This document shows positions 1 to 60,690 of a DNA stretch of 64,000 nucleotides, one piece after another. A program made the translations under genes and the position numbers. This stretch comes from Candidatus Accumulibacter conexus (GTDB taxonomy: Bacteria; Pseudomonadota; Gammaproteobacteria; Burkholderiales; Rhodocyclaceae), in the NCBI GenBank assembly GCA_017592775.1, contig JAGFNJ010000008.1, positions 1-64,000 of the forward strand, given 5' to 3'. The notes under the pieces are model-generated. The model saw only the letters and a list, made by a program, of their open reading frames with translations, was not told the origin of the DNA and did no database searches. Within the stretch, counting starts at the first letter, position 1, and every line of letters starts with the position of its first letter.

Positions 1-3000
1 CGTGTCGCGGTTGGTCGCGGCGTTGGGCAGTGTGTCGAAGCGGAAGACGTCGGCGCCGAGGCCACCCGTCAGGCTGTCGTTGCCGAGGCCGCCGAGCAGG
101 GTGTCGTTGCCGGCACCGCCGTCGAGGCCGTTGGCGCCCGCAGCGCCGTAGAGGAGGTTGCCGAGGCCGTTGCCGGTGAGGTTGGCGGCGCCGGCGGCGA
201 GGATCCAGCCGTTCTCGACGTTGGCGGCCAGGATGTGGCTTGCCAGGTAGCTATGGATCTGGTCGACTCCGCCGCTGACCGGGTTGGCGTTGGTCTCGGT
301 GACGCGGTCGTTGACGTCGTCGAGGTAGTAGGCGTCGTTGCCGTCGCCACCGACGAGGCTGTCGGCGCCGGTCCCACCCCACAGCGTGTCGTTGCCGGCG
401 CCGCCGTTGAGGGTGTCGTTGCCGGCGGCACCGTTGAGGACGTTGGCGCCCGCGGCGCCGGAGAGGAGGTTGTCGAGACCGTTGCCCGTGAGGTTGGCGG
501 CGCCGCTGGCGAGGACCCAGCCGTTTTCGACGTTGGCGGCCATGATGTGGCTTGCCAAGTAGCTATAGATCTGGTCGACTCCGCCGCTGACCGGGTTGGC
601 GTTCGTTTCGGTGACACGGTCGCCGATGTCGTCGAGGTAGTAGGCGTCGTTGCCATCGCCACCGATCAGGCTGTCAGCGCCGGTGCCGCCCCACAGCGTG
701 TCGTTGCCGCCTCCGCCGTTGAGCGTGTCGTTGCCGGCGGCACCGTTGAGGACGTTGGCGCCCGTCGCGCCGTAGAGGAGGTTGTCGAGGCCGTTGCCGG
801 TGAGGTTGGCGACGCCGGCGGCGACGATCCAGCCGTTCTCGATGTTGCTGGCGAGGATGCAGTCCGGGAGGTAGCTATAGACTTGGTCGACTCCGCCGCT
901 GACCGGGTTGGCGTTGGTCTCGGTGACACGGTCGCCGACATCATCGAGGTAGTAGGCGTCGTTGCCGTCGCCACCGATCAGGCTGTCGGCGCCGGTGCCG
1001 CCCCACAGCGTGTCGTTGCCGCCTCCGCCGTTGAGCGTGTCATTGCCGGCGGCACCGTTGAGGACGTTGGCGCCCGCGGCGCCGTAGAGGAGGTTGTCGA
1101 GGCCGTTGCCGGTGAGGTTGGCGGCGCCGGCGGCGAGGATCCAGCCGTTCTCGACGTTGGCAGCCAGGATGTGGCTTGCCAGGTAGCTATGGACCTGGTC
1201 GACTCCGCCGCTGGCCGGGTTGGCGTTGGTCTCGGTGACACGGTCGCCGACGTCGTCGAGGTAGTAGGCGTCGTTGCCGTCGCCACCGATCAGGCTGTCG
1301 GCGCCGGTGCCGCCCCACAGCGTGTCGTTGCCGCCTCCGCCGTTGAGGGTGTCGTTGCCGGCGGCACCGTTGAGGACGTTGGCGCCCGCGGCGCCGTAGA
1401 GGAGGTTGTCGAGGCCGTTGCCGGTGAGGTTGGCGGCGCCGGCGGCGAGGATCCAGCCGTTCTCGACGTGGGCGGCCAGGATGTGGCTTGCCAGGTAGCT
1501 ATAGACCTGATCGACGCCCCCGCTGGCCGGGTTGGCGTTCGTCTCGGTGACCGAGTCGAAGACGTGGTCGAGGTAATAGGCGTCGTTGCCATCGCCGCCG
1601 ATCAGGCTGTCGGCGCCGGTGCCGCCCCACAGCGTGTCGTTGCCGGTCCCGCCGTTGAGGGTGTCGTTGCCGGCGCCGCCGTCGAGGAAGTCATTGCCGG
1701 ACTCGCCGCCAAGGGCGTTGGTACTGCCGTCACCGCGCAGGAGGTCGGCGTAGGTCGAGCCGGCGAGGTTCTCGATGCCGTCCAGCGTGTCGAGGCCGGC
1801 GCCAAGCGTGTTCTGCTGCACGCCCACCGTGCCGAGGTTCACACTCACGCCAGCGCTGGCATCGGCGTAGGCTGCGGTGTCGCTGCCCGAGCCGCCAGCG
1901 AGCGTGTCGTCGCCTGCGCCACCGTGCAGCGAATCGTTGCCGCCACCGCCATCGAGGCTATCGTTGCCACCGAGCCCTTCGAGCTGGTTGTTGCCACCAT
2001 TGCCGACGAGACCGTCACCGAAGTCGCGCGACCCGCGGACGTCTTCGATGTCGTGCAGGCTGTCGGTGCCGCGGTAGCCGTCGCTCGCCAGCCCGGTCGT
2101 CAGGTTGACGCTCACGGCGGCGATGCTGCGCTCGTAGTCGACGCGGTCGGTACCTCCCCGGCCATCGATCTGGTCGTCGCCTTCACGCCCTTCGAAGGAT
2201 TCGAAGGCGGCGCTGTCGCTGCCGGTCAGGGTGTCGTTGTACGCTGAACCGCGGACGCCTTCGATGTGGCGCAGCGTGTCGGTGCCGCCGAAGCCGTCGC
2301 TGGCGCTGCCGTCGGCGCCGTCGTTGAGCTGGACGTTCACTGCCGTCGGCGAAGTAGTGTAGTCGACCCGGTCATAGCCCTGGCCACCGTAGATGGTGTC
2401 GTTGCCGGCATTGCCGACGAAGTACTCGCCGAGGCCATCGCCAACGCTGCTGCCGTTGGTCGCCAGGCCACCGTTCAGCGTGTCGTCGTGGGCCGAGCCG
2501 CGGATGCCCTCGATGTGCCGCAGAGTATCCTGGCCGCCAAAACCGTCGATGGCGATGCCGCTGACGAGATCGACCGAGACAGCGGTCGGCGAACGGTCGT
2601 AGGCGGCGATATCGACCCCGCCTCGGCCGTCGATGAAGTCGTTGCCCGCCAAGCCTTCGAAACATTCGGTGAGCGTGCCGTCGCTGCCGAGCAGGGCATC
2701 GGCGTAGGCGGAGCCTCGGACCTGGTCGAAGTTGACCAGTGTGTGCCGGTCGAACCCGAGGAAGAACTGGAAGCCAGTCGGAGTCAGCGCGGCTTCGCCA
2801 GCCGCCAGGTCAACCCAGGCGGCGTACGGCGCCGACTGATAGCTCACCAGATTGCTGTTTCGCTGGTTGAGCTGATCGGTGATGGCACCGCCGTCGAGGG
2901 TATCCTCGCCGAGACCGCCCTCGAACTGCTCGAGGATCAGCGCGCTGCTGCCGGTGATCGAGTCGGCAAGATTGGAGCCCCTGACCTGGTTGATGTGGAG

Positions 3001-6000
3001 CAGCGTGTCGGTTCCGCCGAAACCGTCGTTCGCCGTGCCGCTGCCGACGCCGGCACCGCCGCCGAGGTCGATCACGACGCCGCTGCTGCTGCCCGAGTAG
3101 TCGATCGAGTTGAAGTCGGTGCCGCCGATCCGGTCGCTGATCGTTCCGCCGTCGAGCGTGTCGTTGCCCGCACCCCCGATCAGACGGTCGGCGCCCTCGC
3201 CACCGCTCAGGCTGTCGTTGCCCGGACCGCCGCGAAGCTGGTCGTCGCCCGCGAGGCCGCTCAGGCTGTCGTTCCCTTCCAGGCCTTCGATCCAGTCGCT
3301 GTCCGCGGTGCGGTCGAGCGGGTCGTCGTCTGCCGGACCGCCGACGATCGGCTCCGGATGATAGCCGTTGAAGTTGCTGGCGACCAGCTCCGTCCTGGTC
3401 ACTGCCTGCAGGAGCAGCAGCGTCTGGAAGCTTGCCGGCCCGGCACTGCCGTCGGTGTCGATCTCCAGCAGGGTATCCCCTCCCAACTGCGTCAGCCGCG
3501 CATGCCCGCTGGCGAAGGGATTGCCGTCAGTGAAGTTGCTCAGCCGCCAGGTCGGCAGGACGATCCTGTCGCCGGATGCGCCGGCAGCGAAGTCGGTGAT
3601 CGTGTCGGCGGATGTGTCGCCGGACGTGGTCCACGGGTGCAAGCTGTCGGCGCCGGAGCCACCGCTCAGGGTGTCGTTGCCTTCGTCGCCCTGAAGACGA
3701 TCGTTGGCGTCGCCGCCACTGAGACTGTCGTCGTCCGCTCCACCGTAGAGCGTGTCGCTGCCGGCGCCGCCGCTCAGGGTGTCGTTGCCGTCCCGGCCGT
3801 GGATCTCGTCGTCGCCTGCACCGCCGGGGAGAGACTCGGCAGCCGATGTACCGAGAGTCGGATGCGGATTGAAACCCTGCGTGTTGGCCGCGACGAGGCT
3901 GTTCCGGTCTACGTTCTGCAGCGTGGCGACCGTTTCGAACACCTCGGCCGAGGCGCCCGCGCCATCGCTGTCGATCTGCAGCAGGGTGTTGGCGTCCGCC
4001 TGCAGCAACCGCAGGTGACCGGTGACGAACGGATTGCTGCCGTAGACGTAGTTGCTGATCCCCCACAGATAGCCGGAGAGTTCGTCACCACCGAGACCGG
4101 CCTGGAAGTCCGTGATGGTGGCATGCGAGCCGCTGTAGCCGCTCCAGACGTGGAAGTCGTCGGAACCGCTGCCGCCCGTCAGGGTGTCACGGCCGTCGTC
4201 ACCGTAGAGCAGATCCCTGCCCGCTCCACCTGCCAGGATGTCGTCACCCTGCTCGCCCCAGAGTTCATCGTCACCGTCGCCGCCATCCAGGCTGTCGTCG
4301 CCGTCTTCGCCCCACAGCTCATCGTCGCCACTGCTGCCGCTGAGGGTGTCGTCACCCGCAAAACCGTACATCTCCTCGCCACGGGTCGTGCCGGCAAGGA
4401 GGTCCGCGCCCGGACCACCGACGATCGGGAAGGGGTCGCAGTAGCCTTCCATGTAGCCGGAACCGAAGTTCTCGGCAGCCAGCTCGCTGGCGACGACATG
4501 GTTCAGGATGGCGACGGTGTGGAAGCTGGCGCCGCCGCCCGGACCATCGGCATCCACCTGGAACAGGGTGTCGGGGCCCGCCTGGGTGAGGCGGGCGTGG
4601 CCGCTGGCGAAGGGGTTGCCGCCGAGGTAGTTGCTCAACTGGCCGTAGGCGGGAAGCGCGATCTGGTCGCCCGCGAAGCCGACCGTGAAGTCCGTGATCG
4701 TGTCGGTCGAGGAGTCGCCGGCGGTCTGCCAGACGGTGAAGTGGTCGCGACCCGCGCCGCCACTCAGCGTGTCATTGCCTTCCCCTGCGGCGAGTTCGTC
4801 GTTGCCTTCGCCGCCTGCGAGGACGTCGTCGCCGGCACCACCCCAGAGGGTGTCGGAACCCGCCAGGCCGACGAGGGTGTCGTTGCCCGCAAGGGCGTGG
4901 ATCTCGTCCGTGCCGGCGGTGCCGGCAAGCGATTCGGGGCCTGCAGTACCGCGGATGACCTGCGGATTCCAGTTGCCGAAGTTCGCGGCGACCAGACTCT
5001 CCCGGACGACATTGCTCAGGATCGCCGCGACCTGATGGGTCCCTGCAGCGTCGGGGCCGTCGACATCCAGCTCGAGCAGCGTGTCGGCGCCCGACTGGGT
5101 GAGGCGGGCATGGCCGCTGCCGAAGGGATTGGCATTCGGCGTGTAGTTCGCGAAGCGCCCGCTCGGCAGCGCCAGGAAGTCGCCCCCGGGGCCAGGCGCG
5201 AAGTCGGTGATCGTGTCGGCCGACGTGTCGCCGGCGGTCTCCCAGACTTGGTAGTGGTCGTTGCCCGCCCCGCCGCTCAGCGTGTCGTTGCCTTCCTGGC
5301 CGCTGAGAACGTCGATCCCTTCGCCGCCGTCGAGGCTGTCGTCTCCGGGGCCACCGGCGAGGCTGTCATTGCCCGCCCCACCGCTCAGCGTGTCGTTGCC
5401 GGCAAGGCCGTCGAACTGCTCGCTGGCGCCCGTGCCGGTAAAGACATCGGGGCCGGAAGTCCCGACATGTGGATTCCAGTTGCCAAAGTTCCACGCCGTG
5501 AGTGCCGACTTGCTGACGTTGCCGAGGATGACGGCAGTCTCGAAGCTGCTGCCACTTCCGGCTCCGTCGAGGTCGAACTCGAGCAGGGTATCGGCACCGG
5601 ATTGGCTCAGGCGGGCATGGCCACTGCCGAAGGGGCTCGCCCCCGACGTGTAATCCGTGAAGCGCCCGGTGGGAAACGAAGCGATCCGGTCGCCGCCACT
5701 GCCGGCGGCAAAGTCGGTGATCGTGTCGGTCGAGGTGTCGCCGTCGGTTTCCCAGACGTGGAAGTAATCCGTGCCGGCGCCGCCGGTCAGCGTGTCGTTG
5801 CCTTCCTGTCCGTGGATCTGGTCGAGTCCTTCGCCGGCGTCGATGCTGTCGTCGCCGAGCCCACCGTAGAGGCTGTCATGGCCGGCGAGGCCGACCAAGG
5901 TATCGTTGCCGGCCAGGGCGTCGAACTCGTCGTTGCCCGCAGTGCCGGTCAACAGCTCCGGCCCCGCCGTGCCGACGTGCGGATTCCAGCCACCGAGGTT

Positions 6001-8496
6001 CGACGACGTCAGGCTCGAGCGGCCGACGTTGTTGAAGATGGCGGCGGTCTGGAAGCTGCTGCTTCCTCCCGCGCCGTCGAGGTCGAACTCGAGCAGGGTG
6101 TCGGCGGCCGATTGCGTCAGGCGCGCGTGACCGCTGCCGAAGGGGTTGGCTCCCGCCGTGTAGTTGCTGAAGTGCCCGGTGGGAAGCAGGGCGATCCGGT
6201 CGCCGCCATTGCCGGCAGTGAAGTCGGTGATCGTGTCGGTCGAGGTGTCGCCGACGCTCTCCCAGATGTAGAAGTAGTCGTTGCCCGCACCGCCGGTCAG
6301 CGTGTCGTTGCCTTCCTGTCCGTGAATGTAGTCGAAGCCTTCACCGCCATCGAGGCTGTCGTCACCGAGGCCGCCGTAGAGGCTGTCGTTGCCCGCCAGG
6401 CCGCTGACGGTGTCGTTCCCGGCCAGGCCGTCGAACTCGTCGTTGCCGGGTGTGCCGGCAAACGGCTCGGACCCCGGTGTGCCGACATTCGGAATCCAGT
6501 TGACCAGGTTCGTCGACACGAGGCTCGACTTGCTGACGTTGCTGAGGATGACGGCAGTCTGGAAACTGCCGCCACCGCCGGGGCCGTCGAGGTCGAACTC
6601 GAGCAGGGTGTCGGCGCCTGCCTGCGTCAGGCGTGCGTGGCCGCTGCCGAAGGGGTTGGTGCCCGACGTGTAGTTCGTGAAGCGCCCGGTGGGAAGCGAA
6701 GCGATCCGGTCGCCACCATTGCCGGCAGCAAAGTCGGTGATCGTGTCGGTCGAGGTGTCGCCGGTGGTGTCCCAGACGTAGAAGTGATCGGTGCCTGCTC
6801 CGCCCGTCAGCGTGTCGTTGCCTTCCTGTCCGTAGAGGTAGTCGAAGCCGTCTCCACCATCGAGGCCATCGTCGCCAAGACCGCCGTAGAGGCTGTCGCC
6901 GCCCGCCAGGCCGCCGAGCGTGTCGTTGCCGGCAAGACCGTCGAACTCGTCGTTGCCGGCCGTGCCGCTGAACAGGTCATCTGCCGAGGTTCCGACATGT
7001 GGACTCCAGCCACCGAGATTCCACGACGCCAGCGCCGTCCTGCTGACCTGGTTGAGGATGAGCGCCGTCTGAAAGCTGCCGCCGCCTGCGCCGTCGAGGT
7101 CGAAGTCGAGAAGGGTGTCGGAGCCGGACTGGGTGAGGCGCGCATGCCCGCTGCCGAAAGGGTTGGCGCCTGGCGTGTAGTTCGTGAAGCGCCAGGTGGG
7201 GAGCGATGCGATCCGGTCGCCGCCAGCGCCGGCGGCGAAGTCGGTGATCGTGTCGGTCGAGGTGTCGCCGGCCGTTTCCCAGACGTAGAAATGATCGGTG
7301 CCCGGACCACCGGTGAGCGTGTCGTTGCCTTCCTGCCCGTAGAGGTAGTCGAACCCGTCGCCCGCATCGAGGCTGTCGTCGCCGAGCCCGCCGTAGAGGC
7401 TGTCATTGCCCGCAAGGCCGTTCAAGGTGTCGTTGCCGGCGACGCCATCGAACTCGTCGTCGCTGGTCGTTCCGGTGAACAGATCGCTACCCGAAGTGCC
7501 GAGATGGGGGTTCCAGCCGCCGAGGTTCCACGACACCAGGCTCGACTTGCTGACGTTGTTCAGAATGACGACAGTCTGGAAACTGCCGCCGCCCACTGCG
7601 CCGTCGAGGTCGAACTCGAGCAGGGTGTTGGCACCGGCCTGGGTGAGACGGGCGTGACCGCTGGCGAAGGGATTGGCGCCCACCGTGTAGTTGCTGAAAC
7701 GCCACGTCGGATGTTGAATCCAGTCCCCGCCCATCCCGGCAACGAAATCCGTGATCGTGTCGGTCGAGGTGTCACTCGACTGCTGCCAGACGTAGAAGTA
7801 ATCGTTGCCCGCGCCACCGGTCAGCGTGTCGTCACCTTCCTGCCCGTAGAGCCAGTCGCTCCCCTCACCGCCATCGAGGCTGTCGTTGTCGAGCCCACCG
7901 TAGAGGCTGTCGTTGCCCGCCAGTCCGTTCAAGGTGTCGTTGCCGGCAAGACCGTCGAACTCGTCGTGGCCGGGTGTGCCGGCAAACAGGTCGGGGCCGG
8001 CTGTCCCGACATTCGGGATCCAGTTGGCCAGGTTCGCCGCCACAAGGCTCGACGTGAGCACATTGCTGAGGACTGCTGCCGTGTGGAAGTTGCTGCCCCC
8101 GCCCGCGCCATCGAGGTCGAACTCGAGCAGGGTGTCGGCACCCGCTTGCGTGAGACGCGCGTGACCACTGCCGAAGGGGTTGGCGCCCGCCGTGTAGTTG
8201 CTGAAACGCCAGGTTGGAATACTGATCCAGTCGCCACCGATGCCGGCCGCAAAGTCGGTGATGGTGTCGGTCGAGATGTCGCTGGTGGTGTTCAGGAAGT
8301 AATCGGTGCCCGCCCCACCGGTCAGCGTGTCGCTACCTTCCTCACCGTAGAGAAAGTCGGTTCCCGCGCCCCCATCGAGGCTGTCGTCGCCGAGCCCGCC
8401 GTGCAGGGTGTCATCCCCTTCGAGGCCATTCAGGGTGTCGTTGCCGGCGCTTCCCCCGAGCGGATCGTTGTCCGGGGTACCGTTGTAGGTGCTCAT
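1..8496 (-). CDS. Giant RTX-repeat type I secretion protein, C-terminus cut by window edge
   Basis: The frame is open from ATG 8496 to base 1, giving 2832 codons with no stop, so the C-terminus is missing. The start has AGGAG six bases upstream. The N-terminus (MSTYNGTPDND) has no Sec signal. Glycine/aspartate nonapeptides such as GGAGNDTLNG run throughout and are the calcium-binding RTX parallel beta-roll. Order: ten modules of about 170 residues (residues ~50-1700) alternating RTX repeats with a D-T-I-T-D-F segment; about five units with the pattern V-D-Y-x-x-S and G-G-T-D-T-L (~1780-2180); then five exact-period 104-residue RTX units. The last residues in the window (LPNAATNRDT) match the start of the C-terminal tail of the protein at 9544-23451, so only about 90 residues are probably missing. 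Its role is likely a secreted surface or matrix protein or adhesin (inference). It lacks the DUF4347 domain of its neighbour. Confidence 0.9.
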   Translation of the reverse strand, partial: MSTYNGTPDNDPLGGSAGNDTLNGLEGDDTLHGGLGDDSLDGGAGTDFLYGEEGSDTLTGGAGTDYFLNTTSDISTDTITDFAAGIGGDWISIPTWRFSNYTAGANPFGSGHARLTQAGADTLLEFDLDGAGGGSNFHTAAVLSNVLTSSLVAANLANWIPNVGTAGPDLFAGTPGHDEFDGLAGNDTLNGLAGNDSLYGGLDNDSLDGGEGSDWLYGQEGDDTLTGGAGNDYFYVWQQSSDTSTDTITDFVAGMGGDWIQHPTWRFSNYTVGANPFASGHARLTQAGANTLLEFDLDGAVGGGSFQTVVILNNVSKSSLVSWNLGGWNPHLGTSGSDLFTGTTSDDEFDGVAGNDTLNGLAGNDSLYGGLGDDSLDAGDGFDYLYGQEGNDTLTGGPGTDHFYVWETAGDTSTDTITDFAAGAGGDRIASLPTWRFTNYTPGANPFGSGHARLTQSGSDTLLDFDLDGAGGGSFQTALILNQVSRTALASWNLGGWSPHVGTSADDLFSGTAGNDEFDGLAGNDTLGGLAGGDSLYGGLGDDGLDGGDGFDYLYGQEGNDTLTGGAGTDHFYVWDTTGDTSTDTITDFAAGNGGDRIASLPTGRFTNYTSGTNPFGSGHARLTQAGADTLLEFDLDGPGGGGSFQTAVILSNVSKSSLVSTNLVNWIPNVGTPGSEPFAGTPGNDEFDGLAGNDTVSGLAGNDSLYGGLGDDSLDGGEGFDYIHGQEGNDTLTGGAGNDYFYIWESVGDTSTDTITDFTAGNGGDRIALLPTGHFSNYTAGANPFGSGHARLTQSAADTLLEFDLDGAGGSSSFQTAAIFNNVGRSSLTSSNLGGWNPHVGTAGPELLTGTAGNDEFDALAGNDTLVGLAGHDSLYGGLGDDSIDAGEGLDQIHGQEGNDTLTGGAGTDYFHVWETDGDTSTDTITDFAAGSGGDRIASFPTGRFTDYTSGASPFGSGHARLSQSGADTLLEFDLDGAGSGSSFETAVILGNVSKSALTAWNFGNWNPHVGTSGPDVFTGTGASEQFDGLAGNDTLSGGAGNDSLAGGPGDDSLDGGEGIDVLSGQEGNDTLSGGAGNDHYQVWETAGDTSADTITDFAPGPGGDFLALPSGRFANYTPNANPFGSGHARLTQSGADTLLELDVDGPDAAGTHQVAAILSNVVRESLVAANFGNWNPQVIRGTAGPESLAGTAGTDEIHALAGNDTLVGLAGSDTLWGGAGDDVLAGGEGNDELAAGEGNDTLSGGAGRDHFTVWQTAGDSSTDTITDFTVGFAGDQIALPAYGQLSNYLGGNPFASGHARLTQAGPDTLFQVDADGPGGGASFHTVAILNHVVASELAAENFGSGYMEGYCDPFPIVGGPGADLLAGTTRGEEMYGFAGDDTLSGSSGDDELWGEDGDDSLDGGDGDDELWGEQGDDILAGGAGRDLLYGDDGRDTLTGGSGSDDFHVWSGYSGSHATITDFQAGLGGDELSGYLWGISNYVYGSNPFVTGHLRLLQADANTLLQIDSDGAGASAEVFETVATLQNVDRNSLVAANTQGFNPHPTLGTSAAESLPGGAGDDEIHGRDGNDTLSGGAGSDTLYGGADDDSLSGGDANDRLQGDEGNDTLSGGSGADSLHPWTTSGDTSADTITDFAAGASGDRIVLPTWRLSNFTDGNPFASGHARLTQLGGDTLLEIDTDGSAGPASFQTLLLLQAVTRTELVASNFNGYHPEPIVGGPADDDPLDRTADSDWIEGLEGNDSLSGLAGDDQLRGGPGNDSLSGGEGADRLIGGAGNDTLDGGTISDRIGGTDFNSIDYSGSSSGVVIDLGGGAGVGSGTANDGFGGTDTLLHINQVRGSNLADSITGSSALILEQFEGGLGEDTLDGGAITDQLNQRNSNLVSYQSAPYAAWVDLAAGEAALTPTGFQFFLGFDRHTLVNFDQVRGSAYADALLGSDGTLTECFEGLAGNDFIDGRGGVDIAAYDRSPTAVSVDLVSGIAIDGFGGQDTLRHIEGIRGSAHDDTLNGGLATNGSSVGDGLGEYFVGNAGNDTIYGGQGYDRVDYTTSPTAVNVQLNDGADGSASDGFGGTDTLRHIEGVRGSAYNDTLTGSDSAAFESFEGREGDDQIDGRGGTDRVDYERSIAAVSVNLTTGLASDGYRGTDSLHDIEDVRGSRDFGDGLVGNGGNNQLEGLGGNDSLDGGGGNDSLHGGAGDDTLAGGSGSDTAAYADASAGVSVNLGTVGVQQNTLGAGLDTLDGIENLAGSTYADLLRGDGSTNALGGESGNDFLDGGAGNDTLNGGTGNDTLWGGTGADSLIGGDGNDAYYLDHVFDSVTETNANPASGGVDQVYSYLASHILAAHVENGWILAAGAANLTGNGLDNLLYGAAGANVLNGAAGNDTLNGGGGNDTLWGGTGADSLIGGDGNDAYYLDDVGDRVTETNANPASGGVDQVHSYLASHILAANVENGWILAAGAANLTGNGLDNLLYGAAGANVLNGAAGNDTLNGGGGNDTLWGGTGADSLIGGDGNDAYYLDDVGDRVTETNANPVSGGVDQVYSYLPDCILASNIENGWIVAAGVANLTGNGLDNLLYGATGANVLNGAAGNDTLNGGGGNDTLWGGTGADSLIGGDGNDAYYLDDIGDRVTETNANPVSGGVDQIYSYLASHIMAANVENGWVLASGAANLTGNGLDNLLSGAAGANVLNGAAGNDTLNGGAGNDTLWGGTGADSLVGGDGNDAYYLDDVNDRVTETNANPVSGGVDQIHSYLASHILAANVENGWILAAGAANLTGNGLGNLLYGAAGANGLDGGAGNDTLLGGLGNDSLTGGLGADVFRFDTLPNAATNRDT
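160..1690 (-). repeat. 312-bp tandem RTX repeat array (five units)
   Basis: The same anchor (ggcgtcgttgcc, encoding G-N-D-A) occurs at 331, 643, 955, 1267 and 1579, an exact period of 312 bp or 104 residues. Each unit encodes an RTX stretch with G-N-D-T-L-W-G-G followed by G-N-D-A-Y-Y-L-D and then an E-N-G-W-I-L-A segment. Exact spacing without indels implies recent duplication or ongoing homogenisation. Confidence 0.9.
3400..8440 (-). repeat. About 510-bp repeat array (ten modules) in the left RTX gene
   Basis: Equivalent anchors lie at about 3666, 4180, 4765, 5278, 5788, 6298, 6808, 7315, 7822 and 8323. Spacing is 501-513 bp for most units and 585 bp for one. Each unit encodes RTX nonapeptides, then a segment with D-T-S-T-D-T-I-T-D-F, F-G-S-G-H-A-R-L-T-Q and L-L-E-F-D-L-D-G. 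The units towards the C-terminal end are the most diverged. Confidence 0.85.
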
Positions 8497-8820: not shown

Positions 8821-9069
8821 TCAGGGCTGGCGACGGCGGCTGCAGCCCCGGCCTGCGAGGCCGCGGCCCAGCAGTGCCAGAGAGGCAGGCAGTGAGCCCC
8901 TGATATCGACGGAATCGAGCAAGGCCGGGGTGCTCAGGTCGACCGTGCCAGTTGCATTGTCGTACAGCGAAGGACCGAAGGACGGGGCCAGTCCGCCAGC
9001 CGGTACGAACGGCCCGCCCCAGAAATTGAGGTCAATGGACGAGATGTCCAGCTGAATGAGCGTTGGCAC
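8821..9069 (-). CDS. Small protein with degenerate PEP-CTERM sorting signal, possible pseudogene
   Basis: This is an 82-residue frame starting at GTG 9069, with GAGGAA about seven bases upstream. The C-terminus reads LPASLALLGRGLAGRGCSRRRQ, closely resembling the exosortase target signal (Pro-Glu-Pro, hydrophobic helix, Arg cluster). It is damaged: the Pro-Glu-Pro site is Ser-Leu-Pro, and two leucines expected in the helix are arginines (CGC and CGG, each one base from a Leu codon). There is no N-terminal signal peptide, which exosortase substrates need. The promoter elements upstream look intact. The gene is therefore either a decaying, N-terminally shortened PEP-CTERM gene or an unusual small product. 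Homology of the tail is clear by eye; function is unknown. Confidence 0.6.
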   Translation of the reverse strand: MPTLIQLDISSIDLNFWGGPFVPAGGLAPSFGPSLYDNATGTVDLSTPALLDSVDIRGSLPASLALLGRGLAGRGCSRRRQP

Positions 9070-9108: not shown

Positions 9109-9124
9109 AGCAAGTTTTCTGCCA
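9109..9124 (-). promoter_or_regulatory. Sigma-54 (-24/-12) promoter
   Basis: On the minus strand the sequence is TGGCAGAAAACTTGCT. It matches the consensus TGGCACGRNNNTTGCW at all positions except 6 and 7, with correct GG-to-GC spacing. It lies 39 bases upstream of the GTG at 9069, a normal leader length. A second, similar pair of elements precedes the giant gene at 47080. Confidence 0.7.
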
Positions 9125-9160
9125 GACTGATTTCTGTCGCATATTCAGTGCCTTGACAGG

Positions 9161-9196
9161 GCGTGTCGGGGTCCATTGTAAAAAACCCCGACACGC
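9161..9196. repeat. Perfect 11-bp inverted repeat around the upstream element
   Basis: The arms are gcgtgtcgggg (9161-9171) and ccccgacacgc (9186-9196), separated by 14 bases. One arm is the first half of the 17-base element at 9177-9193. No T-run follows in either direction, so an activator-binding palindrome is more likely than a terminator. Confidence 0.8.
9177..9193 (-). promoter_or_regulatory. 17-base upstream element shared with the giant gene
   Basis: The minus strand reads TGTCGGGGTTTTTTACA. The plus-strand copy at 46894-46910 reads TGTCGGGTTTTTTTACA, a 16/17 match. It ends 52 bases before the -24/-12 promoter, a typical place for an enhancer-binding activator of sigma-54. The link to a PrsR-type regulator of exosortase systems is inference. 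Confidence 0.65.
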
Positions 9197-29882: not shown

Positions 29883-31679
<1,797 letters not shown>

Positions 31680-31691
31680 AGGAGTGGGCCA

Positions 31692-32480: not shown

Positions 32481-32492
32481 GGAGCGCGCATC

Positions 32493-34413: not shown

Positions 34414-34451
34414 GCGCCAGAGCCGACGATGACTGGCGGACGAGTCGGCGG

Positions 34452-46893: not shown

Positions 46894-46910
46894 TGTCGGG
46901 TTTTTTTACA
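46894..46910 (+). promoter_or_regulatory. 17-base upstream element of the giant gene
   Basis: TGTCGGGTTTTTTTACA, a 16/17 match to the element upstream of the PEP-CTERM remnant (9177-9193, minus strand), and both are preceded by G. It ends 63 bases before the -24/-12 promoter, against 52 bases in the other copy. The 11-base difference is about one helix turn, so an activator would face the same side. Confidence 0.65.
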
Positions 46911-46973: not shown

Positions 46974-46989
46974 CGGCGCGAATCTTGCT
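46974..46989 (+). promoter_or_regulatory. Sigma-54 (-24/-12) promoter of the giant gene
   Basis: CGGCGCGAATCTTGCT matches TGGCACGRNNNTTGCW except at positions 1 and 5; the essential GG and GC are correctly spaced. Transcription would start near 47001, giving an 80-base leader to ATG 47080. Confidence 0.6.
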
Positions 46990-47079: not shown

Positions 47080-50000
47080 ATGAAAGTCTTCGGTGAAGAG
47101 CGGGTGAATTCCTATTTCTCCAACAGCCAGTCGGCTCCGGCCGTCGCGGCGCTCGCAGCTGGAGGCTACGTCACCACCTGGGTCTCGAATGGCCAGGATG
47201 GCAGTGTCGACGGAATTTACGCCCAGCGGATGGACGCCAACGGGGTCGCCATCGGCCCCGAGTTCCGCGTGAATAGCACCACCGGCAACAACCAGACCGA
47301 CCCGAGGATCGCCGCGCTCTCCGATGGTGGCTTCGTCATCGTCTGGTCCGACGATGGTGGCGCCGACGGCAGCGGCTGGGGCGTCTACGCCCAGCGCTAC
47401 AGTGCCGCCGGCGTGCCCCAGGGGGACGAGTTCCGCATCAACACGACGACCTACAGCACGCAGTATCAGGCCAGCGTGGCGGCCTACGCGGGCGGCTTCG
47501 TGGTCACCTGGGCAAACCATTCCGGGAATGTGGATACCAGCGGCCATGGCGTCTTCGGCACCCGTTTCGACAACGCCGGCAACGTCGTGCAGACCGGCGG
47601 GCAGAACGAGTTCCAGGTCAATGCCTACACCACGAGTCACCAGTGGGAACCCGACGTCGCAGCCTATGCCGACGGCAGCTACGTGGTGGTCTGGCGATCG
47701 GAGGGACAGGAAGGCGATGGCTATTCCGGGGTCTACGGGCAGCGCTACGGCAGCAATGGCGCCAAGCTTGGCGGCGAATTTCACGTCAACAGCTACGTCA
47801 CCGACTACCAGTTCGCGCCGCGTGTGGCGACCCTGTCTGATGGTGGATTCGTCGTCGTCTGGCAGTCGCGTGGCCAGGATGGCAACGGTGACGGGGTCTA
47901 CGGCCAGCGCTACGACGCTGCCGGCAACGCGGCCGGCGGCGAATTCCGCGTCAACGTCGCGACCGATCACGACCAGGGCAATCCCGACGTGATCGGCCTG
48001 TCCACCGGCGGCTTCGTCGTCACCTGGTACAGCTACTATGTGCCCGCCGAAGGCAAGTACTACGAGATCTACACCCGCGAATACGATGCCGCCGGCGCGC
48101 CGAGTTCGGGCGAGCAAAAGGTCAACACCTTCGACAGCAGTTCCTATGGCCAGATCCAGCCGGTGGTGGCCGATCTGGGGCAGGGCAATTACGTGGTGGT
48201 GTGGTCGTCGGACAATCAGGATGGCAGCAGCTACGGCGTCTATCAGCAGATGTTCGGCGACCCGGCGGATTTCACGCGCCAGGCCAATCCCGAACTGGCG
48301 GATTTCGGCGGCAGCGTCGCCTTCGGCGAAAATCTGGTCAACGCCGGTCTGCAGGTGCTGGATGCGGCGGTGAGCCTGAGCGACGCCGACTCGGCGAACT
48401 TCGATGGCGGCCGTATCGAGCTCTATTTCGTCAAGGGCGGTAGTCTCGAAGACCAGTTGGGCGTGGTGCATGAAGGCGACACCCCGGGCCGCATCGGCGT
48501 CTCCGGCACGACGGTCAGCTTTGGCGGCACGGCCATCGGGACGATCAGCGGCGGCGTCAACGGCGCCAACCTGATCATCGACCTCAACGCCAACGCCAGC
48601 GTCGACGCGGTCGAGCAGCTCATCCAGCGCCTGGGCTACGGCAACGGCAGCGGCAACCCCGCCGCCTCCCGCGAAGTGGGCATCCGCGTCTCTGATGGCG
48701 ACGGCGGCTCCACCTTCGGTGGCATCGTCAGCATCAACGTCACGCGAGAGCTTGACGGCACCCCCGCCGCGTACGGCGAGCAACAAGTCAACACCTACAC
48801 CTACGACCACCAGCACAACCCGGAAGTCGCCAAGCTGGCCGGCGGCGGCTACGTCGTCGTTTGGACCTCGCGCAGCCAGGACAGCGCCAGTGACAGCGAC
48901 GGCATCTATGCCCAGCGCTACAACGCCAGCGGCGTCGCCGTCGGGCCGGAATTCCGCGTCCCGACCCTCACCGGATCCAGTCAGGAATATGCGCACGTGG
49001 CGGGCCTTTCGGATGGCGGCTTCGTCATCACCTGGCAGGACAATGCCGGTCACGACGGATCGAGCTGGGGCGTGTTCGGACAGCGTTTTGACGTGAATGG
49101 CGTCGCCCAGGGCGCTCAGTTCGCTCTGTCCAGCTACACCAGCAACGACCAGTACCACGATGCAGTCAGCGCCTATGCCGGCGGCTTCGCTGCGGTCTGG
49201 AGTTCCTACAATCCGGCAGACGGCGGCTATCACGACATCCATCTGCGGCGCTTCAACAACGATGGCACCGCGTTGGACGGCACGCAGCTGTTGGTCAGCA
49301 CCACACCGGGCAATCCGGCGCAGCAGCAGAGCGGACACCAGTTCCTGCCCGACATCGCCACTCTTTCGGATGGCGATCTGCTCGTGGTCTGGCGCGACGA
49401 CAACGGCAACGATGGCAGCAGCCATGGCGTCTATGGCCGCCGCTTCGATGTCGGCACCGGCACCTTCGGCGACAGCTTCCTGGTGAACACGCGCACCGAC
49501 GACGCCCAGTACGAGGCCCGGGTGGCCGCCCTCAGCGACGGCGGCTACGTCGTCGTGTGGCGGGAAAACAACCAGGACGGCAGCGGCTCGGCGGTGATGG
49601 CCCAACGCTACGCCGCGAATGATGCCAAAGTCGGCATCGCCATCCGGGTCAACGAATACACCACCGGCAGCCAGTACGAGCCCGACGTCATCGGCCTGTC
49701 GAGCGGCGGCTTCGTGGTCAGCTTCTTCAATGACTACTACGGTCCCGACGGCACCAGCGCCAACGTCTACATCCGTGAGTATGACGCCGCCGGCAACCCG
49801 GTCGATGGCGACCGGATCGTCAATACCTTCACCGCCAACAATCAGCACCAGCCGGCGATGGCTGACCTCGGTCAGGGCAACTATGTCGTCGTCTGGCGTT
49901 CCGACTATCAGGATGGCAGCAACAGCGGCATCTACCAGCAACTGTACGGCGACACCACCGAACTCCCCCGTTCCGCCAACCCGGAACTGGCGGATTTCAC

Positions 50001-53000
50001 CGGCACCGTCAGCTTCGACGAGAACGCCGTCAACGCCGGCCTGCAGGTCATCGACTCGGCAGTGAATCTGATCGACAGCGATTCCGCCAACTTCAACGGT
50101 GGCCGCCTGGATCTGTACTACCTCACTGGCCAGGCGGCCGAAGACCAGCTCGGCGTCGTGCACCAAGGCACCGGCGCCGGCCAGATCGGCGTCTCCGGCC
50201 AGACCGTCAGCTTCGGCGGCGTCGCCATTGGCACCATTTCCGGCGGTGCCAACGGCGCCAACCTGCGCATCGACTTCAGCAGCAATGCCGCGACGCCGGA
50301 CGCGGTGGAAGCGCTGATCCAGCGCCTTGGCTATCAGAACGCCGACTCCAGCCCGAACGCCAGCCGCACCCTGGGCCTGCGCGTGTCCGATGGTGATGGC
50401 GGCACGAGCCAGCCCAACGTGCTGACCATCAACGTCAGTGCACAACTCGACGGCACACCGAAGGCTCATGGCGAAGAACGGATCAACACCCATGTTCCCA
50501 ACAACCAGAGCGAGGCGGCGGTCGCCGCCCTGACGGGTGGCGGTTACGTGGTGGCGTGGACTTCCGACGGTCAGGACGGATCCTCCGGCGGGATCTTCGC
50601 CCAGCGCTTCAACGCGAGTGGCGTCGCGGTGGGTCCGGAATGGCAGGTCAACAGCGTGACCGCGGGTTCGCAGAGCTATGGCCATGTGGCCGGCCTCTCC
50701 GACGGCGGCTTTGTCATCACCTGGCAGGACGACAGCAATCATGACGGCTCCGGGTGGGGCGTGTTCGGCCAGCGCTACGACGCCGGCGGCGTCGCCCAAG
50801 GCAGCCAGTTCCTGGTCAACAGCTTGACCACCAGCACCCAGTACCACGACACGCTGACCGCCTACAGCGGCGGTTTCGCCACGGCCTGGAGTTCCTACAA
50901 TCCTGCTGAAGGCGGTTACCACGATATCTTCCTGCAGCGCTGGGACAACGCCGGCAACAAGGTCGGTGGCGAACTGCTGGTCAGCACCGACCCGGGCAGC
51001 GCTGCGTCCCAGCCCGGCTACCAGTACCTGCCTGACATCGCCGCCCTGAGCGACGGCGACCTGCTGCTGGTGTGGCGGGACGACAACGGCAACGATGGCA
51101 GCAGCCACGGGGTCTACGCCCGTCGCTTCGATGTGGCCACACAGAGCTTCGGCGACACGTTCCTGGTCAACACCGGCAACACGAGCGGTGCCCAATACGA
51201 GCCCAGGGTGGCAGCCCTGTCCGACGGTGGCTACGTCATCGTCTGGCGCGACGACAACCAGGACGGCAGCAGCGCGGCGGTCATCGGCCAGCGCTACGAC
51301 GCCAGCGGCGCCGCCGTCGGCAGCCAGTTCCGCGTCAACGAAAACACGGCCGGTGGCCAGTACCAGCCTGAGGTCATCGGCCTGTCGACTGGCGGCTTCG
51401 TGGTAAGCTTCTACAATGACAGCTGGGGTTCCCAGGGCACCTATTCCGACGTCTACGTGCGCGAATACGATGCCGCCGGGAATCCGGTGGACGGTGACCG
51501 GCAGATCAACGATCCGGCCAGCAATCATTACTGGTCCGGCCAGTCGCAGCCGGCTCTGGCCGACTTGGGCAATGGCAACTACGTCGCCGTCTGGACCTCC
51601 GACGGGCTCCAGGATGGCAGCGGCAACGGCATCTACCAGCAACTGTTCGGCGACCTCGCCGAACTGGCGCGCCAGGCCAACCCGGACCTCGCGGATTTCA
51701 CCGGCACCGTCACCTTCGACGAGAACGCCGTCAACGCCGGCCTGCAGGTCATCGACGCGGCGGTCAGCCTGGTCGACAGCGATTCAGCCAACTTCAACGG
51801 CGGCCGCCTGGATCTCTACTACCTCACTGGTCAGGCGGCGGAGGACCAGCTCGGCGTCGTGCATCAGGGCAATGCTGCCGGCCAGGTCGGCGTTTCCGGC
51901 AGCACGGTCAGCTACGGCAACGTTGTCATCGGTACGATCAGCGGTGGCGCCAACGGCAGCAGCCTGCGCATCGACTTCACGAGCAACGCCGCCACGGCGG
52001 AGGCGGTGGAAGCCCTGATCCAGCGACTGGGCTATGCCAACACCGACTCGAGCCCCAACGCCAGCCGCAGCCTGGGTCTGCGGGTGTCCGACGGAGATGG
52101 CGGCGCAAGCCAAGCCAACGTGCTGACGATCAACGTCACGCCACAACTGGACGGCACTCCCGCCGCTCATGGCGAAGAGCAAGTCAATACTTACACGGCG
52201 GACAGTCAGCAGAGTTCCAACGTGGCCAAACTCGCGGGCGGCGGCTACGTCGTGACCTGGATTTCGTATGGCCAGGATGGCAGTTCATGGGGCATCCACG
52301 CCCAGCGTTTCAACGCCAGCGGCGTGGCGGTCGGGCCTGAGTTCAAGGTGAACAGCCTGACCGGTGGCGAACAGAGCTGGCCGCACGTGGCCGGATTGTC
52401 CAACGGCGGCTTCCTCATCACCTGGCAGGACAACAATGGCCATGACGGCTCTGGCTGGGGGGTCTACGGCCAGCGTTACGATGCCACTGGCGCGGCGGCA
52501 GGCAGTCAGTTTCTGGTCAACGCCCACACCGACAGCACCCAATACCACGACAGCGTCGTCGCCTATACAGGAGGCTTCGCGACCGTCTGGTCTTCCTACG
52601 GCAACTCCGGTGGCAGCGGCCACGACATCTACCTGCAGCGCTGGGACGACGCCGGCAACAGAGTACTGACCGGCGGCCAGAACGAGGTACGGATCAGCAC
52701 CGATCCCGGCAGCAGTACGGCCCAAGGCGGCAACCAGTACTTGCCGGAAGTGGCGGCGCAGGCCAACGGCAACCTGTTCGTCGTCTGGACCGACGAGGGT
52801 GGCAATGACGGCGCCGGCTACGGCGTCTACGGCCGCTTCTACAATGCCGGTTCAGGCACCTTCGGTGACCCAGTGGTCGTCAACACCACCGCTTCGGGTT
52901 CCCAGAGCTACGGTGCCAGCGGCGACTTCGAGCCCAACGTGGCGGCTCTCAGCGACGGGGGCTTCGTCGTCGTCTGGCCGTCCGACAGCAACGACGGCAG

Positions 53001-56000
53001 TGGCTGGGGAGTGATGGGCCAGCGCTTCGACGCCAGCGGCAACAAGATGGGCGGCGAGTTTCGGGTCAACGAGAATCCTGCCAGCAACCAGTACCAGACC
53101 GACGTCATCGGCCTGTCCACCGGCGGCTTCGTGGTGGGCTTCTATCACGACGGCAGCGGTCCGGATGGCACTTATTACGATGCCTACATCCGTGAGTTCG
53201 ATGCCGCCGGCAATCCAGTGGATGGTGACCGCAAGGTCAATACGTTCAACGGCTACAACTACTACCAAGGTGAGCCCGCACTGGCAGACCTGGGCAACGG
53301 CAACTTCGTGGTGACCTGGGCCAGCCAGTATCAGGATTCCGGTTCCAGCTACGGTATCTACCAGCAGTTGTTTGGCGACCCGGCCGAGTTGCCACGGCAG
53401 GCCAACCCCGTTCTCGATGATGTGATCGCCACGCGCACCCTGGGCACCGCTCAGGCTGCCACGCCGCAGATCATCGATGCCGATGCCTGGGTCAGCGACA
53501 GCGATTCCGCCAACTTCGACGGCGGCAGCCTGTGGGTCTATTTCACTTCGGGCCAATTGGCCCTGGACGTACTTGCCGTCAACGACGAGGGCACCGGTGC
53601 GCTGCAGATCGGCGTGTCCGGCAGCAACATCAGCTACGGCGGCACGGTGATCGGCACCTTGGCCGGCGGCAGCGCCGGCGCGCCACTGGTGATCAGCTTC
53701 AATGCCAGCGCCACTCCCGAAGCGGTGCGCCATCTGGTGGAGAACATCACCTACCGGTACGATGACCTCACCGCTCCCATCGGTAGCCGCACCGTCGCGT
53801 TCCGCCTGTTCGACGGCGACGGCGGCGCCTCCGCACCTGCCAGCACCACCATCAGCATCGAGGCTTCGGCGCCGCCGGCGGCACTCGGTCTGTCGGGTCT
53901 GGACGGCAGCGTCACGCTGTCTGAAGCCACGGCGCAACTGGGAACCGTCGTCGACGAGAACGTCGACGTGACGCAGGGCGCCGATGCGATCACCACGCTG
54001 ACGGTGTCTTACGCCGGTGGTTCCGAACGCCCGGAAGACCAGCTCTCGATCCGCCATCAGGGCTCGGGCGCTGGCCAGGTCGGCGTCTCCGGATTCGACA
54101 TCAGCTACGAGGGAACGGTCATCGGCACGGTCAACGCCGCTGACACCGGCGCCAACGGCGACAACCTGGTGGTCGACTTCAACGGCTCTGCCACCGCCCA
54201 GGCCGTCGAGCGGGTGATCGAGAACCTGCGCTACCAGACCAGCAGCGACGGCCCGCTGGCCAGCCGCACGATCCAGGTCCAGGTGACGGACGCGGCCAGC
54301 GCGACGACCACGCAGGCGATGGCGATCAACATCACCGCCGAGGACGAAGGCGTGCAACCGCTGTTCGGCGACGAACAGGTGAATACCTACGAGCCCGGCG
54401 ACCAGTACTTCCCGCGCGTCGTTGGCCTTGAAGGCCCCAACGCCGGCAGCTATGTGGTGGTCTGGCAGTCGCCCAACGAGGATGGCAGCGGCAACGGCGT
54501 CTTCGCCCAGCGCTACAACGCCCAGGGCGTTCAGGTGGGTACCGAGTTCCAGGCCAACACCTATGCCAGCAACGACCAGACCGCGCCGATGGTGGCCAGC
54601 TTGGCCAATGGCGGTTTCCTCATCGTCTGGCGCAGCGAAGGCCAGGACGGCTCCTCGGGCGGCGTTTACGCCCAGCGCTATGGTGCCGACGGGGCGCCAG
54701 CGGGTGGCGAGTTCCGCGTCTCCACGGTTACCGCCTACGACCAGACGCACCCGACCGCAGTGGGACTGGTCGATGGCAGTTTCGTCATCGCCTGGGCCGA
54801 CCAGTATCGGGATACGAGCAGCTACGGCAGCTACGCCCAGCGCTACGCCGCTGACGGCACGCCCATCGGCACGGAGTTCGAGCTCAACAGCTATCTGCCT
54901 GGTGAACAGTACCTGCCGTATCTGGCGACGCTGAAGGATGATTCCTCAACGGTCGGTACGGATGAGAGCGGCTTCATCGCGGTATGGGAATCCAATGGCC
55001 AGGACGGCTCCGGCTGGGGCGTCTATGCCCAGCGCTTCGACCTAACCGGCACCAAGGTTGGCAGCGAACTTCTGGTCAATACCGCCACCAGCGGCAGCCA
55101 GACCAATCCCGATGTCGCCGTTCTGGCCAATGGCCATATCGTTGTCGTTTGGGTTGACCAGGCCATTGGCGACATCCGTGGCCAGCTCTATACCGCTGCC
55201 GGCGTGACCATCGGCGGCGAATTCACCGTCAGCAGCAGCGACTTCAATTCCGACTACGGCCAATGGCCGCATGTCACCGCGCTGCAAAGCGGCGGCTTCG
55301 TGGTGAGCTGGGACGGCTACTCCAGCCCGAGCGACAGCGGCTACGGCGTCTATGCCCAGGAATTCGACGCCAATGGCGACAAGGTGGACGGCCCCTTCTC
55401 GCTCAACGGCAATACCGCCAACAACCAGCACTACCCGGACATCGCCGCGCTCACCGGCAACAACTTCGTCGCCGTCTGGATGAGCAATTACCAGGAGAGC
55501 GACGGCAACAGCAGCCACGGTATCTTCCAGAAGGTGTTCGGCACGCCGGGCAGCATCACCCGCCAGGCTTCGCCGGAACTGATCGATCTGGACAACTCGG
55601 TCAGCTTCAATGAAAACGTCGTCAACGCGGCAGCGCAACTCCTCGATCCGGGCGTGCGGGTGGTGGACGCGGATTCCGCCAACTTCGACGGTGGCCGTGT
55701 GCACGTCAGCGTCATCACCGGCTACGGTGCCGCGCAGGCCTTCGACCCCGTCGCATTCCAGCAGGACCACTTCTCCATTCGCAACCAGGGCAGCGGCGCC
55801 GGCCAAGTCGGCTTCAATTCCGGCACCGGTGTGGTGACCTACGCCGGCACGGCCATCGGCAGCATCATCAGCAACGGCCAGAACGGCGCCGATCTGGTGC
55901 TGCAGTTCAACGCCAACGCGAGCGCCGAAGCCGTCGAAGCGGTGATCGAGAACCTGACCTACCGCAACAGCGCCAGCAACCCCACCGCCAGCCGCCAAGT

Positions 56001-59000: not shown

Positions 59001-60690
59001 GATCATCGATCTGGTGTCCAGCGTCACGTACATGGAAAACCTGATCAACGACACGCCGCAGCTCATCGACGCCGGAGTGGGTCTGGTGGACCCGGATTCC
59101 GCCAACTTCGACGGCGGCCGCCTGGACGTGAGTTACGTCACGCCCTACGGCAACCCGAACCAGTTCGACATCCCCGGCATCAACGCCCAGGATCAACTGG
59201 GAATTCGCAACGAAGGCACCGGCGTCGGCCAGATCGGCGTGTCGGGCAACAGCGTCACCTACAACGACGGCACGGGCGCCGTGGTCATCGGCAGCATCGT
59301 CTCCGACGGGGTCAACGGCAAGCCGCTGACCGTCGTGTTCAATGCCAATGCCACCCCCGACGCGGCCGAGGCGTTGATCGAGAACCTGACCTATGCCAAC
59401 CCGCTGTCCAACCCCGAACCCAGCCGGACCGTTTCGCTGAGCCTGTCCGACGGCGACGGCGGCGTGACCACGCCGCGGGCGATCACGATCAACATCACCG
59501 CCCAGCCGGACGGCGCTTCGCTCTACGGTGCCGAGAAGGTGGTCAACAGCACCATCGGCGGTACGCAGGAGAACCCGTCGATCGCCCATCTCGACAACGG
59601 CAACTACGTGGTGGTGTGGACAGACACCAGCGGCCAGGACGGCAGCAGCCAAGGGGTCTTCGCCCGCGTCTACGACAGCAACGACCACCCGTTGGCGCCC
59701 GAGTTCCAGGTCAACACCACCACCGCCAGCACGCAGTGGCAGCCGAGCGTGGTGGCCCTGCAGGGCGGCGGCTTCGCCGTCGCCTGGTCTGGGTACAACC
59801 AGATTGGTTCAACCAGCTACGACGTGGTCGGCCGTACCTTCGACAACACCGGCACCGCCACCAGCACCGAATTCGTCATCAACAACCCGGCGGCGACCTA
59901 CGCCAACTACGACCAGTCGCAGCCCGCACTGGCTGCCCTGCAGAGTGGCGGCTTCGTGGCGCTGTGGTATGCAAACTACGATCAGGCCGACAACACTTGG
60001 GCCGAGATCTGGGGCCAGCACTTCACGAGTGCCGGTGTCCGCAGCGGCGATGTGTTCAAAGTGAACACCAGCACCGGCTTCCAGGCCAACTCCCAGGACA
60101 GCCCGCAGGCAGCCACGCTCGCCGATGGTCGCTATGTGGTGGTGTGGCGTTCCAACGATCAGGATGGCAGCAGCGCCGGCGTCTACGGTCAGCGCTTCAA
60201 CGCCGACGGCACGATGGACGGCGCCGAGTTCCGCGCCAACACCTACACCGCCAACGGTCAGTACCAGCAGGACGTGGCGGCGCTGAACGACGGCGGCTAC
60301 GTCGTGGTCTGGGGCTCCGACAGCAACCAGGATACGAGCGGCTGGGGCGTCTATGGCCAGCGTTACGACTCGTCCGGGAATGCCGTGGGTGGCGAGTTCC
60401 GCGTCAACTACACCGTATCCGGCACCCAGTACGTCCCGGCGGTGGCCGCACTGGCCAACGGCGGCTTCGTCGTCAGCTGGACGAATGGCGATGAAATCCT
60501 GTTCCAGCAATACGATGCGGCGGGCCGCAAGGTCGATAGCGAACAGTTGGTCAATCCGACCGCGAACTACGAGTACAGCAATGACTCCGACCTGGTCGGC
60601 ACGCCCGATGGCGGCTTCATCCTGACCTGGGGCGGTTACAACCACGGCAACGGCTCCTACGACGTCTTCCTGCAGCGCTACAGCAACCAG
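47080..60690 (+). repeat. Eight ~1.2-kb blocks of seven propeller-like blades (about 1.7-kb super-period)
   Basis: Each blade is about 50-62 residues, with core V-A-A-L-x-D-G-G-F-V-V-x-W. Blocks start at about 47080, 48770, 50460, 52160, 54355, 56075, 57820 and 59510. I checked the block-opening motifs (e.g. V-A-K-L, V-A-G-L, V-S-A-Y, I-A-T-L, V-A-A-L, V-I-G-L, M-A-D-L in block 2) and counted seven in every block. The seven-fold grouping suggests a closed beta-propeller per block. Confidence 0.75.

Follow-up and report, generated by a model that had tools for sequence, protein, structure and literature searches.

Motif-1/sigma-54 promoters of the PEP-CTERM type before a truncated gene and a giant gene with an exosortase-type partner in a Candidatus Accumulibacter genome

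Introduction

Candidatus Accumulibacter ranks among the foremost bacteria that form granules and remove phosphate in wastewater treatment, and the exosortase/PEP-CTERM system has been linked to floc formation. The secretome of Accumulibacter granules contained proteins with PEP-CTERM motifs, according to the relevant part of PMC12019908. The locus studied here raises the question of why two near-identical 17-nt elements, each followed by a sigma-54-type promoter, stand before a PEP-CTERM remnant on one strand and before a giant gene without a visible Sec signal on the other. The window, that is the whole stretch of DNA analysed, covers 64 kb from the start of contig C81, which is 112,463 bases long and belongs to a 4.87-Mb Ca. 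Accumulibacter genome, referred to below as the host genome.

A promoter of this kind is described in the passages of Haft 2006 (PMC1569441) that deal with it. It consists of a 17-nt motif 1 with TTTACA at its end and a sigma-54 motif 2, separated by 62.8 +/- 10.6 nt (range 32-92), and it precedes 99 of 167 proteobacterial PEP-CTERM genes. PrsR is the predicted binder, tied to the motif through its phylogenetic profile; a few extra sites before other genes and repeated copies of motif 1 are also noted there.

Elements and sigma-54 boxes of the window

The following features were found by scanning the window; both spacers fall on the comb of preferred spacings described below.

9177..9193, minus strand: motif-1 element TGTCGGGGTTTTTTACA, predicted PrsR site
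9110..9124, minus strand: sigma-54 box TGGCAGAAAACTTGC, spacer 52 bp from the 9193 element
46894..46910, plus strand: motif-1 element TGTCGGGTTTTTTTACA, the same 17 letters being present in the relative G014
46974..46988, plus strand: sigma-54 box CGGCGCGAATCTTGC, spacer 63 bp from the 46894 element

The preliminary description of this DNA had pointed to two near-identical 17-mers at these places, with sigma-54-type promoters 52 and 63 bases downstream and a PEP-CTERM remnant and a giant gene behind them. All of this is borne out: TGTCGGGGTTTTTTACA and TGTCGGGTTTTTTTACA are the sole matches to the 17-mer in the window with up to 3 mismatches allowed (100 dinucleotide shuffles of the window gave 0 matches), the boxes lie at exactly these spacers, and downstream are a remnant of 82 codons (8821-9069, minus strand) and a giant frame from 47080. 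At both elements a -24(GG)/-12(GC) box lies inside the 32-92 nt downstream range. The -24 box of the 46894 promoter is imperfect, with CGG instead of TGG. A strict TGG...TGC pattern of the whole promoter gives 8 sites in the host genome and misses 46894 because of this CGG; boxes were scored locus by locus instead.

Compared with the text description of Haft motif 1, the window element is motif 1 of the PEP-CTERM promoter and is already known. The proposal in the preliminary description that it may serve as a PrsR site is not new, having been published in 2006 in the passages cited above. What goes beyond that description is the spacer comb, the giant-gene promoter kept in a relative, and the pair formed by the giant gene and its partner.

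Several further genes are found in the window. A serralysin-like metalloprotease frame with an M10 C-terminal domain and RTX repeats lies at 23838-27119 (minus strand), and housekeeping genes of the lepA, signal peptidase I, rnc, era, pdxJ and nagZ types occupy 29883-37316 (plus strand), between two giant-gene groups. A frame at 37370-38767 (minus strand), opposite a plus-strand frame, has a weak match to an EACC1-associated caspase (29.5 bits, cut-off 140).

The predicted regulator

The preliminary description had noted that a PrsK-PrsR pair commonly accompanies exosortase/PEP-CTERM loci, and the host genome does encode these proteins: a cluster on contig C46 contains PrsK (851 bits), PrsR (726.5) and PrsT (897.3), all above curated cut-offs, adjoined by an XrtA-system glycosyltransferase (518.4 bits, above its cut-off). 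The genome also contains other sigma-54 activators of like build, with seven more strong matches to the PrsR model TIGR02915 at 292-351 bits, and one of these NtrC-family proteins could in principle bind the element in place of PrsR. We regard this as unlikely: only one of the 42 matches to TIGR02915 in the host genome exceeds the cut-off of 502.6, the phylogenetic profile of Haft 2006 links the motif to PrsR, and in the relevant part of PMC3333781 the predicted PEP-CTERM regulator of D. vulgaris, DVUA0057, was enriched in vitro (DAP-chip) at its five predicted PEP-CTERM targets. PrsR is therefore retained as the predicted binder.

Distribution in the host genome and its relatives

The preliminary description had proposed a genome scan for the element and for PEP-CTERM genes downstream of it, and had named a scattering without regard to sigma-54 promoters or PEP-CTERM genes as what would speak against its reading. 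The pattern TGTC-N7-TTTACA is found 21 times in the host genome, compared with 2 for the reversed pattern; for the 17-mer with up to 3 mismatches the counts are 26 and 6. Judged by the first downstream frames, a protein ending in a PEP motif follows 11 of the 21 exact sites, or 12 if one PLPAS variant is counted. Approached from the genes, 30 PEP-CTERM loci were examined out of 33 matches in the host genome, and an element with a box is present upstream of 15 of them (one doubtful); the opposite strand gave 2 of 30.

In the search of relatives, 50 of 101 genomes (host included) contain an element with a box, among them all 28 genus genomes, while the reversed control gave 4 matches across the 101. 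From the 124 same-genus sites listed, 80 were taken in listing order; at 63 of these a PEP-CTERM-like frame starts within 400 nt of the box, a few being loose calls. At the other 17 no following frame fits the PEP-CTERM pattern used, some of them having PLPG or VPxP variants. The sites are thus not scattered without regard to promoters or genes: they have helical spacings to sigma-54 boxes, as set out in the next section, and the majority lie before PEP-CTERM genes.

The nine remaining exact sites of the host genome are the two of the window and those on C24, C59, C14, C15 (5918), C20, C70 and C11 (63105), the last of which is probably a chance occurrence. The sites on C20 and C70 have no clear target. 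On C24 (L085) and C59 (L088) the motif-1 promoters lie upstream of HPr-kinase-related genes, with 362 and 88 bits respectively (HprK_rel_A cut-off 200); a PEP-CTERM gene is found further downstream on C24. The element at C14:57367-57383 is followed by a CBS-domain-type gene, and a similar gene follows the element in three relatives (L187, L219, L249), the CBS domain itself having been shown in one of these. A motif-1 promoter precedes a LuxR-type regulator frame at C15:5902-5918 and at L230 (G022), the C15 matches being under the cut-off; further downstream on C15 a large gene of at least 1346 aa begins, without a Sec-like start. Large proteins without a Sec-like start (by eye) also follow the element in two relatives: G009 has a 1409-aa protein with SdrD_B repeats and a similar one, and G013 has one with cadherin repeats.

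Spacing between element and box

In the host genome the spacer was taken to the best-scoring box within 20-150 nt. For 25 of the 32 element-like places the spacers fall into five groups (52-53, 62-65, 74-75, 84-86 and 96-97), with R=0.91, a value that none of 20,000 uniform draws reached. Seven places were dropped by judgement, namely L013, L014, L018, L022, L024 and L026 (3 mismatches each) and the exact site C11:63105 (L076), with spacers of 102, 137, 118, 73, 148, 62 and 55 and box scores of 9-11 (11-14 for those kept); other places with 3 mismatches were kept. Adding C11:63105 back lowers R from 0.91 to 0.88, and with all 32 places R=0.79, which none of 5,000 uniform draws reached.

The comb is also seen in the relatives. 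Without the host genome, the relatives have at least 142 sites at spacers of 45-70 and at least 141 at 71-100, the latter search having been run as a prediction from the comb of the host genome. Among these 283 listed sites, a few elements being counted twice, the tooth means are 52.0, 63.4, 74.2, 85.5 and 96.6, and the step is 11.12 bp per tooth (bootstrap 10.97-11.28, an interval that is too narrow because orthologous promoters were counted as separate). The troughs, which were defined after the data had been seen, hold 9 of the 283 in 23 of the 56 spacer lengths.

The tolerance of sigma-54 enhancers for helical phase is known in general (relevant parts of PMC4740811 and PMC7408454), and in the LuxO/sigma-54 qrr enhancers of Vibrio natural indels of one helical repeat are tolerated (PMC4740811, same part). 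Among the listed titles and abstracts of open-licence PMC papers, no report of a spacer comb for PrsR was found.

The giant gene and its promoter

The 46894 promoter is followed by two genes.

47080..64000, continuing to C81:68454, plus strand: giant gene, 7124 aa, cysteine-free (frame reading and domain scans)
C81:68509-69174, outside the window, plus strand: partner gene, 222 aa, its product having a signal peptide (by eye) and ending in PEPAVPALALLAAAAVARRR

The giant protein is very long, repeat-rich and acidic, and its start has no Sec signal visible by eye, in agreement with the preliminary description. Its first 422 residues form a unit that recurs several times in the protein, and PKD repeats come after this N-terminal unit. 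The model of the unit is all-beta and propeller-like (pLDDT 84) and matches propeller-type enzymes at about 8-14% identity; we take it as predicted to be all-beta and propeller-like only, and assign no enzyme identity. A search with the unit finds 3 loci among the genome contigs, one in Accumulibacter and two distant and weak (28-30% identity).

Giant type I-secreted RTX or Ig-repeat adhesins are likewise very long, repeat-rich, acidic and cysteine-free, and lack a Sec signal. The giant protein of the window is probably also exported by a type I system, a reading from sequence based on its Sec-less start together with an exporter gene elsewhere in the host genome (LssB-type, 988 bits), not a linked one. 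At the locus itself no exporter linked to the giant gene was recognised; an ABC gene after the partner was considered but not taken as the exporter, its best matches being to MsbA-related models, below their cut-offs. The RTX motif GG[AS]G[AN]D is absent from the giant of the window and no RTX match was obtained in the three segments scanned, whereas RTX repeats are present in the version of G010.

The giant gene could be transcribed from an ordinary promoter, the element at 46894 being incidental or serving another transcript. The CGG of the -24 box would fit this, as would the missing element at four of nine paired giants with a readable start (see below). The closest relative of the giant, in G014 (contig named Accumulibacter sp. 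SCELSE-3), argues otherwise. It has 87% identity in the N-terminal 422 residues, and upstream of it the same 17-mer stands exactly 63 bp before the box GGGCACGGATCTTGC, although the flanking upstream DNA has diverged and contains indels. The element also precedes related giants in four more genomes (G002, G026, G010 and G075). On balance the ordinary-promoter reading appears improbable, and we keep the 46894 promoter as that of the giant gene. In G002 the N-terminal homologue, at 50% identity, is also preceded by an exact consensus element, whose best box is 183 nt off, outside the comb range; a claim that this spacer is in phase was judged uninformative and dropped.

The giant gene and its partner

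The partner gene begins 54 nt after the stop of the giant gene; counted from an earlier in-frame ATG, the gap would be 15 nt. By eye, its product has a PEP motif, a hydrophobic segment and a basic tail; compared with Pfam and NCBIfam it matches no PEP-CTERM model. The partners of G024 (an 86% homologue; 18.4 bits) and G003 (22.7 bits) pass the TIGR02595 cut-off of 16, and several others have PLPG or no PEP motif.

Homologues of the partner are found in 11 of the 28 genus genomes, host included, with 12 matches, two of them in G026. All 11 genus loci that can be read have the partner directly behind a giant frame (broken in G018), the twelfth match, in G014, sitting at a contig edge. The gaps between giant and partner are 5-168 nt at the nine measured genus loci. 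The C-terminal domain of the giant was recognised by alignment at nine loci, the nine sequences having 43-90% identity to that of the window, and by an end motif in G018 and at the second G026 locus. Pfam and NCBIfam gave nothing above chance in the five versions of the domain scanned, its model (pLDDT 66) has no PDB match below E 0.001, and a plasmid collection contained no match. One sequence match to a solved structure, at E 0.044, was taken as chance.

When 399 genomes drawn evenly across the order were searched, the domain appeared at E <=1e-10 in two, the host and G075; the genus is barely sampled in this set, as the other genus carriers are absent from its matches. G075 belongs to another family and contains a giant of 2785 aa with DUF4347, Calx-beta and PKD domains; 45 nt behind it lies a partner homologue (51/144 residues identical to the partner of the window; score 163, at most 63 in 200 shuffles). 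Its giant is preceded by two exact copies of motif 1, 134 bp apart (L280:1132-1282), and the best box lies 346 nt after the second, outside the comb range.

PEP-CTERM genes are numerous in the host genome (33 matches), so some adjacency is to be expected by chance, and the small gene might be an independent PEP-CTERM gene that is merely a neighbour. We consider this very improbable, as the partners form one homologous family and, at each of the 11 genus loci that can be read and in G075, lie directly behind giants with a common C-terminal domain. Taking giant and partner as a pair, the element precedes five of the nine paired giants with a readable start: those of the host, G014, G026, G010 and G075. 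G014 is counted as paired because of its 87% identity and the end of a partner at the contig edge. G002, for which the C-terminal end of the giant was not read, is not among the nine. No element was found before the giants of G022, G019, G023 and G018 (broken frame), relaxed scoring included, and the link between the pair and PrsR is therefore not universal. No literature on a giant/PEP-CTERM pair was found among the listed titles and abstracts of open-licence PMC papers.

The site at 9193

The surroundings of the 9193 element include the following features.

8821..9069, minus strand: PEP-CTERM remnant, 82 codons (sequence reading and match to a gene on C41)
9161-9171 and 9186-9196: perfect 11-bp inverted repeat, GCGTGTCGGGG / CCCCGACACGC, overlapping the 9193 element
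1..8496, minus strand: RTX-repeat gene of at least 2832 aa, downstream of the remnant and cut short by the end of the contig

The remnant has no signal peptide and has arginines in its hydrophobic segment. A block of 159 nt matches an intact PEP-CTERM gene (C41:6026-6184) at 79%; compared with that gene, an open frame of 275 codons, the remnant has lost its beginning and a segment ahead of the PEP region. The intact homologue has its own element-like site, TGTCGACGAATCTTACA, with the box TGGCATGAAATGTGC and a spacer that is also 52. From the sequence, the 9193 promoter is best read as the surviving promoter of the truncated PEP-CTERM gene. The next gene identified is the RTX gene with its start at 8496, some 614 nt beyond the box, and the promoter may now feed it. 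A second giant RTX gene, a frame of 4682 aa at 9544-23592 (minus strand) with an N-terminal DUF4347, is found just upstream of the promoter.

The inverted repeat, absent from the preliminary description, brings in a competing account: the site could be dead or accidental, with the 17-mer being one arm of the repeat and perhaps part of a hairpin after the RTX gene ending at 9544. The other host sites do not show this repeat: a CCGACA in the 45 nt that follow the element occurs at only one of 25 host sites, the present one, and at 2 of 80 in the relatives; moreover, the downstream gene is a remnant and the next identified start is far from the box. Pointing the other way are the spacer of 52, the good box (TGGCA-N6-TTGC), the spacing equal to that of the C41 homologue, and the lack of a T run behind the hairpin in the direction of the gene. 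A dead or accidental site is a real contender, a little short of an even chance, and the surviving promoter is the reading carried forward.

Proposed mechanism and its meaning

The explanation that we find most convincing, and hold to be very probable, joins both sites: the window elements would be PrsK-PrsR/sigma-54 enhancers, that at 46894 acting on a unit of giant and partner and that at 9193 being left over from the truncated gene. It draws on the elements and boxes, the comb, the PrsK, PrsR and PrsT genes, the promoter conservation (in part) and the conservation of the gene pair, all of which are read from sequence. The suggestion of the preliminary description that the element is a candidate PrsR site, and that the exosortase regulon includes the giant gene, gains support in the same way from the genome-wide sites, their helical spacings, their PEP-CTERM targets and the conservation in G014.

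The steps proposed here concern PrsR binding, transcription, co-transcription, the export route and anchoring. PrsK would phosphorylate PrsR, which would bind TGTCGR-N5-TTTACA, contact the sigma-54 polymerase at the -24/-12 box through a DNA loop of 52-97 bp and open the promoter; these steps are established for the activator class and are extended to PrsR by analogy. Such a loop should work best with both sites in one helical phase, and natural spacers would therefore be expected to begin near 52 bp and to lengthen in whole steps of about 11 bp. The 46894 promoter would drive a two-gene unit of the giant Sec-less surface protein and then the short secreted partner of exosortase type, the giant leaving by type I secretion and the partner by the Sec/exosortase route. 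The partner may help to keep the giant at the surface, or to receive it there, by way of the conserved C-terminal domain of the giant. Both the single transcript and the anchoring by the partner are suggested by the strict adjacency and the shared C-terminal domain.

A wider proposal is tentative, and we would sooner expect it to fail than to hold: PrsK-PrsR may also switch on a giant Sec-independent adhesin, which an exosortase-processed partner captures or anchors through the C-terminal domain of about 200 residues, joining two export routes. If true, one matrix-building unit would combine the type I and the Sec/exosortase routes. If the switch also makes giants with dedicated partners, the regulon would reach beyond a set of small anchored proteins to a broader matrix programme, and the pair would suggest a concrete role for some PEP-CTERM proteins, that of holding another protein. 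The comb records helical phasing in short natural activation loops (52-97 bp) with unusual clarity, and it gives a direct prediction that can be tested with reporters.

Comparison with known systems

The giant of the window shares with the type I giant adhesins its great length, its repeats, its acidic and cysteine-free composition and the lack of a Sec signal (by eye). Unlike them, it has no RTX repeats in the parts scanned, an end domain that falls into no Pfam or NCBIfam family, and a partner of exosortase type.

The promoter agrees with that of Haft 2006, as far as the passages on it go, in the motif ending in TTTACA, the sigma-54 box, the spacer range, the presence of PrsK, PrsR and PrsT in the genome, and the mostly PEP-CTERM targets. 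Those passages give the spacer as a mean and standard deviation only, with no helical comb, the word 'helical' occurring only in the title of one reference; among the predicted targets here, unlike those discussed in them, is a giant gene for a Sec-less protein, paired with a partner of exosortase type. The same promoter type is common to the window and to two cases with experimental support, as given in the relevant parts of the sources: pepA of Aquincola is RpoN1-dependent, with its start mapped by primer extension (PMC9850573), and mutants of PrsK and PrsR in Zoogloea resiniphila show that both are needed for flocs (PMC9012009, citing earlier work). Those cases concern small PEP-CTERM proteins, not giants. 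With regard to spacing, the nearest comparison is the LuxO/qrr system of Vibrio, for which the part of PMC4740811 concerned covers 61 qrr genes; the comb described here is based on 283 listed sites, involves another activator and has five teeth, over spacers of 52-97 bp.
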